Source of the DNA: Apostichopus japonicus
Lineage: Eukaryota; Echinodermata; Holothuroidea; Aspidochirotida; Stichopodidae
DNA: 64,000 nucleotides
Direction: 5' to 3'
Assembly (NCBI RefSeq): GCF_037975245.1
Contig: NC_092569.1
Coordinates: forward strand, 17,217,501 to 17,281,500
Positions 9,015-9,337 of this stretch are shown in pieces. A model generated the notes under the pieces. It was given only the letters and a program-made list of their open reading frames with translations, was not told the origin of the DNA and did no database searches. The position numbers and the translations under genes were made by a program. The stretch's first letter is position 1. Each line of letters starts with the position of its first letter.

Positions 9015-9337
9015 TCAAGAGGATGGACGAATTTTCATCTCAACAGATCTGACGTTGCAGTAATAACTATAATAATCATAAGTGATGATGTTTTCTCCGT
9101 TGCCTCCATTGTAGTCGCCATTGAGGTTGTCATAAGTACAATACGAGTGACAGTTCCCGTTGTATTGGAAATAATAGCAATAGCTAGAACGATAATAGCA
9201 GCTTTTACAATAATAACTATAGTTGACATGCCACCAGCCGCTTCTGTGCTTCTCTGCGCAGTGAAAGTGACCACATGCATCATTGTCTTGTTCATACGTG
9301 CTGAATTGTTTGCCCCTGCTATAATAGAGATAATTAC
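9015..9337 (-). CDS. Gene 2 exon 8: C-terminal FReD half with Tyr/Cys-rich insert
   Basis: Acceptor ttgcag|GTAATT; phase 1 entry; stop TGA at 9017-9015; 106 residues. Motifs in order: [10 protein letters not shown] (calcium-site-like), [10 protein letters not shown], then 33 residues with 11 Tyr and 5 Cys, then NLNGDYNGG, a second Tyr-rich stretch (YDYYSYYC) and VEMKIRP at the end. A usual FReD has only a few residues between GWW and the Cys before NLNG. On the plus strand the region reads as a hydrophobic VIII-rich ORF, which is a shadow. Confidence 0.85.

Follow-up and report, generated by a model that had tools for sequence, protein, structure and literature searches.

The window analysed here, the whole stretch of 64,000 bases from Apostichopus japonicus, has a G+C content of 34.9% and carries spliced genes, which marks it as animal DNA. 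Three paralogs on the minus strand, genes 2, 3, and 4, share one common exon plan. Exons FA1 and FA2 encode the front part of a first fibrinogen-related domain (FReD). Next come a TIL exon and one that combines TILa, an EGF-like stretch, and the beginning of a second FReD; an exon for the B subdomain follows, and a last exon completes the second FReD. Gene 2 has six exons, and all five of its introns are bounded by gt and ag and consistent in phase. Pfam PF00147 scores above its cut-off in FA1, FA2, the TILa/EGF/FB1 exon, and FB2, and the Pfam EGF models score below their cut-offs in the EGF-like stretch (exon 11460..11765). The exons and the insert discussed below are located as follows:

12868..13037, minus strand: gene 2 exon FA1, start of the first FReD (Pfam PF00147, 3.1e-9; splice sites)
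12318..12582, minus strand: gene 2 exon FA2, middle of the first FReD (Pfam PF00147, 2.3e-23; splice sites)
11922..12136, minus strand: gene 2 TIL exon (Pfam TIL, 2e-8; the start is possibly 3 bases further up, as there are two consecutive AG)
11460..11765, minus strand: gene 2 exon encoding TILa, the EGF-like stretch, and the first part of the second FReD (Pfam TILa, 5.9e-11; PF00147, 1.3e-6; splice sites)
10886..11147, minus strand: gene 2 exon FB2, B subdomain of the second FReD (Pfam PF00147, 1.3e-24; gt/ag sites)
9015..9337, minus strand: FB3, the final exon of gene 2, which encodes the C-terminal P subdomain of the second FReD and includes both insert and stop codon (acceptor ttttgcag, TGA end, tblastn and PDB matches)
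9141..9227, minus strand: insert of gene 2, 29 residues from GWWH to the canonical Cys (codon table, counts)
41377..41684, minus strand: gene 3 last exon, with a 26-residue insert
59289..59593, minus strand: gene 4 last exon, with a 25-residue insert

The first FReD seems to end after its B subdomain. No P subdomain exon for it was found in the genes of the window (12137-13037; 62830-63697), the intron between FA2 and the TIL exon of gene 2 is only about 180 bases long, and at L028, a related locus about 12 Mb distant on contig C9, a second P exon was likewise not found. The order upstream at L028 is similar, with an FA2-like exon, TIL, TILa/EGF, and a B exon. No Pfam match to an IgSF domain was obtained among the six gene 2 open reading frames scanned. 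The FA2 exon of gene 3 (44284-44511) has a 26-nt deletion at its end that creates an in-frame TGA, and gene 3 may therefore be a pseudogene. Two further features of the window are a long (TA)n microsatellite at 9680-9822, in the intron preceding the insert exon of gene 2, and an inverted repeat of about 550 bases with 94% identity and internal repeated copies at 51715-53106, possibly a mobile element.

Between WWH and the canonical Cys, the second FReDs of genes 2, 3, and 4 have 29, 26, and 25 residues, respectively. The same span (WWx to the canonical Cys) comprises two residues in four relatives of known structure in the PDB, ficolin-1, angiopoietin-1, tenascin-R, and tenascin-C, and the canonical Cys pair is separated by 39, 36, and 35 residues in genes 2, 3, and 4 vs. 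12 in these relatives. The original prediction had given the inserts as 33, 30, and 29 residues with 11 Tyr and 5 Cys, 9 and 5, and 9 and 5. These counts are right for the span from GWWH to NLNG (34, 31, and 30 residues if the H is included), but that span takes in the canonical Cys and the three residues following it, and the insert itself is shorter by that much. Its further claim of one extra Cys ahead of the insert (DNDAC; IPC in gene 3) and another in the second Tyr-rich stretch (YYC or NYC) was borne out in all three genes, and each last exon thus contains eight Cys. Chance composition was rejected as an explanation of the insert: in all six frames of the window, only the three insert exons contain 33-residue stretches with at least eight Tyr and at least four Cys. 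A tandem repeat was also rejected, as Tandem Repeats Finder reported no array at 8900-9400.

Searched alone, the last exons of genes 2 and 4 match no Pfam family at E ≤ 1, and that of gene 3 reaches 18.7 bits, below the cut-off of 22. PDB FReDs match the last exon alone weakly (best E 1.1e-4), and the joined second FReD of gene 2 matches 68 distinct PDB sequences at E ≤ 1e-5. It is the PF00147 profile that the insert disrupts, judging from these matches, and not the kinship to FReDs. Scans of viral contigs and genome contigs with the exon alignment gave 52 and 46 pattern matches, respectively, and none of these was confirmed.

The insert looks translated, because its reading frame is kept across genes 2, 3, and 4, the indels between genes 2 and 4 in the last exon are three of 6 nt each, in or beside Tyr codons (those in the flanks are of many lengths), and non-synonymous change between the inserts of genes 2 and 3 is the lower (pN 0.24, 18.5/77 sites, vs. 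pS ~0.81, 10.5/13 sites; Fisher 3e-4). A retained mini-intron was considered and rejected, since no in-frame GT-AG removal that gives back the canonical loop was found in the three exons.

The three exons belong to a much larger family. A Fibrinogen_C search of the genome (671,581,487 bases, 35 contigs) gave at least 169 matches, with the best 150 of 2728 candidates scored, and most of those listed lie on contig C9. The search for P exons used seven short tblastn queries at a limit of E ≤ 0.05. No P exon was obtained at 17 of the 79 loci, L010 among them, and these were left out; the 66 P exons read comprise three in the window, 52 in L001–L068 beside Fibrinogen_C matches, and 11 in L069–L079. 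A long insert is present in 23 of the 66, a sample that is not random because L069–L079 were chosen from the places listed by the gene 2 exon search: 3/3 in the window, 9/52 in L001–L068 (L028–L033, L035, L041, and L051), and 11/11 in L069–L079. Loop length was measured in 63 of the 66 (L038, L046, and L076 being left out), L073 and L076 were classed as long by reading, and the canonical seven residues between WW and NLNG are present in 31 of the 63 measured exons. The canonical P-domain Cys pair and the WW motif are found in all 23 long-insert exons.

Searches with the gene 2 exon (best 150 of 608 candidates) and the L031 exon (best 150 of 2202) together point to at least 230 distinct places, a union built from the start positions in the two match lists; 217 of these lie on C9, 31 of them at 16.85-17.45 Mb around the window. 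As a count of relatives, 230 is a minimum, and the 23 that were read all have a long insert. All 23 long exons fall among the 230 places and none of the other 43 exons read does, a correspondence that holds partly by construction, as 11 of the long exons had been picked from the gene 2 exon matches. Among the best 150 of the 608 gene 2 exon candidates, 135 are free of stops and 15 bear them. Duplicated blocks or redundancy of the assembly may account for some copies; L033 and L051, for instance, have an identical loop. Several P exon pairs with equal scores, some about 678 kb apart, are seen at 34.6-34.8 and 35.3-35.4 Mb of C9 among the listed matches of the L031 exon; they suggest a duplicated block, either real or from assembly. 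The end of another last exon of the window type lies just left of the window, beside a 5000-base run of N (L010:4897-4998).

The Cys residues of the insert exon and their occurrence among the 23 long-insert exons are as follows, in gene 2 coordinates:

9273..9275, minus strand: extra Cys ahead of the insert (DNDAC), in 11/23 exons (the window clade), always together with Cys 9207-9209
9258..9260, minus strand: canonical Cys equivalent to FIBCD1 Cys401, in 23/23 exons (alignments)
9207..9209, minus strand: first insert Cys, in the same 11/23 exons as Cys 9273-9275
9198..9200, minus strand: second insert Cys, present in pair with Cys 9150-9152
9177..9179, minus strand: invariant Cys within the insert, in 23/23 exons, proposed partner in a putative staple
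9150..9152, minus strand: fourth insert Cys, present in pair with Cys 9198-9200
9138..9140, minus strand: canonical Cys before xxxNLNG, equivalent to FIBCD1 Cys414, in 23/23 exons
9057..9059, minus strand: invariant Cys of the second Tyr-rich loop (YYC), in 23/23 exons, proposed partner in the same putative staple

Four Cys are invariant in all 23 exons: besides the two canonical ones, these are Cys 9177-9179 of the insert and Cys 9057-9059 of the second loop. This invariance suggests a canonical disulfide plus a staple from the insert to the second loop, with optional further bonds, although kinship among the exons weakens the argument. The second-loop Cys is present in 23/23 long-insert exons vs. 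3/32 short-loop exons (Fisher 1.4e-12, kinship not corrected for), the latter being the testable 32 of 36 short-loop exons, a group that takes in neither the five exons with 11-residue loops nor the three unmeasured ones. The remaining Cys tend to come and go in twos: Cys 9273-9275 and Cys 9207-9209 are both present in 11 exons and both absent in 12, and Cys 9198-9200 and Cys 9150-9152 (or a neighbouring column) are both present in 20 of the 23, with one exon having neither and two having a single one, although this co-occurrence is confounded by kinship, the 23 exons falling into two main clades. The Cys total is even in 20 of the 23 exons and odd in L029, L072, and L075, and L035 has only the four invariant Cys. 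Conservation of all five insert Cys, proposed on the basis of genes 2–4, applies to these three genes; in the wider family, three of the five vary. Related subfamilies show other Cys arrangements. In L013–L017 (C9 16.18-16.65 Mb), the first canonical P-domain Cys is lacking and a short Tyr-rich loop occupies this position; the loop contains Cys in L014, L016, and L017. In L018, L020, L021, L027, and L058, the first loop holds CC and the second holds CC together with a further Cys, so that there it is the second ligand loop that is varied instead.

According to the accessible part of a study of FIBCD1 (PMC3908420), the disulfide Cys401-Cys414 joins the calcium site to the acetyl pocket S1, a cis-peptide occurs at Asn413-Cys414, and S1 is lined by Tyr405, His415, Tyr431, and Trp443 with Ala432 at its base. 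By alignment, the insert lies inside the equivalent of the Cys401-Cys414 disulfide loop, and it abuts the Cys414 equivalent and so ends right at the cis-peptide position. The expectation that it adjoins the calcium and ligand pocket thus agrees with what that part of the FIBCD1 study describes, in which this very loop links the two sites (PMC3908420). The Tyr405 position is His in 23/23 exons and the His415 position is T, A, or N in 23/23, where equivalence to FIBCD1 is by alignment and the comparison of S1 rests on these two positions, 431, 432, and 443 not being confidently alignable. The calcium Asp pair (Asp393 and Asp395) is kept in 23/23 and 22/23, respectively, gene 3 being the exception. 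Since the two pocket positions are replaced while the calcium Asp pair is kept, the acetyl site has, we conclude, probably been lost, and the putatively stapled loop would form a new ligand face.

The loop is also less conserved than its scaffold across the 23 long-insert exons. From WW to the canonical Cys column it ranges from 25 to 39 residues, and 22 of the 23 loops are distinct. Mean column entropy across the 23 exons is 1.90 bits in the loop vs. 1.04 in the scaffold (p 1.6e-5), the loop columns of the MAFFT alignment being uncertain, and loop identity is lower than scaffold identity in 251 of 253 pairs. Pooled pN is 0.418 in the loop vs. 0.231 in the scaffold, and pooled pS is 0.708 vs. 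0.639; the higher pS of the loop perhaps arises through misalignment. The pooled counts give no signal of positive selection, pN being below pS in both loop and scaffold. The quicker change of the loop may accordingly reflect relaxed constraint or codon slippage and not selection for diversity. In a few single comparisons pN slightly exceeds pS, as in the L033-L032 loop (0.39 vs. 0.37), the L029-L032 scaffold (0.14 vs. 0.11), and exon FB2 of genes 2 and 4.

The reading that we favour, and hold to be more likely than not, takes the insert for a recognition loop that is stapled by a disulfide, diversified in the germline, and carried on a fixed FReD scaffold in place of the acetyl pocket. In ordinary FReD lectins, a disulfide loop of 12 residues links the calcium site to S1 and ends in the cis-peptide that helps to form S1. 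In the present family, this loop would have been lengthened to about 35 residues or more, one added disulfide would staple it to the second loop of the ligand face, and in most members further Cys pairs would brace it, the acetyl pocket probably being gone. The paralogs would differ mainly in loop length, in Tyr, Ser, Asn, and His content, and in Cys number, so that each gene would present a different small rigid binding surface. The proteins may be secreted or matrix-bound binders of microbial or self ligands, and a ligand of one of these kinds seems the likeliest. The disulfide-held variable loop envisaged in the original prediction is in keeping with the four Cys invariant in 23/23 exons and with the loop being less conserved than the scaffold in 251/253 pairs, and is regarded as probable. 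Against a recognition loop stand the pooled pN below pS, the three odd Cys totals, the stop in gene 3, and the 15 stop-bearing matches among the best 150 of the gene 2 exon. More tentatively, this echinoderm might carry hundreds of germline FReD receptor genes in which a hypervariable Tyr/Ser/Cys mini-knob, held by a disulfide staple, has taken the place of the acetyl pocket. Such a loop would parallel the ultralong antibody loop in germline form, and the genes might constitute an anticipatory immune repertoire that would be new for FReDs; we consider this broader proposal possible, with the odds somewhat against it.

A structural or adhesive role would also give a purpose to a Tyr- and Cys-rich loop, which could crosslink secreted matrix or mucus proteins through disulfide or dityrosine bonds, its variation being tolerated and not selected. 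Tyr makes up 25% of the loop residues in the 23 exons (Ser 14.5%, Cys 13%), 12 Tyr follow one another in the L031 loop, the TIL, TILa, and EGF modules beside the FReD would suit a matrix or adhesive protein, and the echinoderm tube-foot adhesion literature, in the portions covered, mentions such domains. The richness in Tyr is usual and not constant, however, and was rejected as the defining trait of the family: the loops of L028 and L079 have one Tyr each with 6 and 5 Cys, and that of L028 retains the Cys spacing 2-6-8-3 of gene 2. The tyrosine-rich adhesive surface that had been put forward as the other possible function of the insert fits poorly with such relatives, which have a similar Cys frame and a single loop Tyr. 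The fixed scaffold and the mostly even, variable Cys set suggest a folded loop, and no adhesive FReD with such an insert was found in the portion of the open-licence literature covered. An adhesive patch is thus viewed as unlikely.

A neutral origin would make the insert a stretch of Tyr codons grown by slippage in a loop that was no longer needed after loss of the acetyl site, in a family expanded for other reasons, e.g., regeneration. TAT accounts for 10 of the 11 Tyr codons of the gene 2 insert, and the three 6-nt indels in or beside Tyr codons and the pooled pN below pS would be expected from such a process. The region lacks a tandem array, and free drift would not be expected to leave four Cys invariant in 23/23, an even Cys total in 20/23, and 135 of the best 150 gene 2 exon matches free of stops, which makes a neutral by-product, in our judgement, distinctly unlikely.

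The differences between genes 2 and 4 have a history of their own. Both genes lie within a large recent duplication (4376-13276 and 54638-63960) whose main blocks are 93% and 96% identical, with divergent patches, and they are about 97% identical near the last exon. In the last exon itself, 29 of 305 sites differ vs. 45 of 1444 in the near flanks (Fisher 5e-6), with a step near the exon edges. Synonymous differences (8 of 48.8 sites; p 2e-4 at the flank rate) and non-synonymous differences (25 of 251.2 sites) are both raised, which favours conversion from another copy over selection alone and points to the exon being a mosaic, as after gene conversion. A second patch, 9976-10975, is also divergent between the duplicated copies. 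Protein divergence of the insert between genes 2 and 4 is not above that of the remainder of the exon, which counts against the recognition loop. That gene conversion into a mosaic FB3, together with segmental duplication, explains the differences among copies and that the loop has no particular role appears very improbable: the raised divergence of both site classes in this exon and of the neighbouring patch would suit it, but it leaves unexplained why, in 251 of the 253 pairs of the 23 copies, conservation is lower in the loop.

If the stapled loop is a recognition surface, the family would amount to a large germline repertoire of binders made from one varied loop on a lectin scaffold, and could give the animal many differently shaped binders. 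It would then allow a direct test of how diversity can arise where somatic recombination plays no part, would be a natural source of small binding loops braced by disulfides, and could tell the purpose of part of the sea cucumber FREP expansion. No such FReD has been described for Apostichopus japonicus in the literature covered. In the accessible text of a study of this species, a cluster of 21 tandem FREP genes is reported whose expansion is tied to regeneration (PMC5638244), and the portion seen of the Holothuria glaberrima genome paper repeats the account of 21 FREP genes and regeneration (PMC13228809). That link to regeneration, as far as the accessible text gives it, counts against the recognition-loop reading. 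The expansion as published there does not come with mention of a loop insert in the same text (PMC5638244), whereas a long loop insert is present here. A 2026 review deals with the FREPs of molluscs and, on the echinoderm side, names germline repertoires, complement-like molecules, and lectins; in the parts covered it mentions no FReD of the insert kind (PMC13428168). Within the open-licence literature covered, no FReD with a tyrosine-rich insertion was found, and the view that no described FReD carries this insert is contradicted neither by that literature nor by the PDB alignments.

Compared with known systems, the second FReD of gene 2 is closest in sequence to the FReD lectins. It matches ficolin-1 (E 3.8e-37), tachylectin-5A (1.5e-36), and FIBCD1 (9.4e-34), and the WW motif, the calcium Asp pair, and the canonical Cys pair of these lectins are kept. 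It differs from them in having 35-39 residues and not 12 between the canonical Cys, in the replacement of the Tyr405 and His415 positions, and in the Cys added in the insert and the second loop. The FREPs of molluscs such as Biomphalaria are likewise large, diversified families with fibrinogen domains, and have an immune role there, according to the parts of the review covered (PMC13428168). In those proteins the fibrinogen domain is combined with one or two IgSF domains, as stated in the accessible text of PMC7588048, whereas the companions here are TIL and TILa/EGF. The diversity in the present family, moreover, sits in the loop insert of the FReD and was read from germline copies alone. The knob of the bovine ultralong CDR H3 offers a likeness in outline, in the sources covered, as a long loop with rich Cys diversity on a fixed scaffold. 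That loop is also Tyr-rich, and its diversity is somatic; there is no kinship, the fold is another, and the copies here are germline. In lamprey VLRs, the LRRCT insert is a variable loop at the ligand face of a repeat scaffold and is assembled somatically. The present insert resembles it as a variable loop inserted at what would be the ligand face, and differs from it in fold and in the somatic assembly found there.
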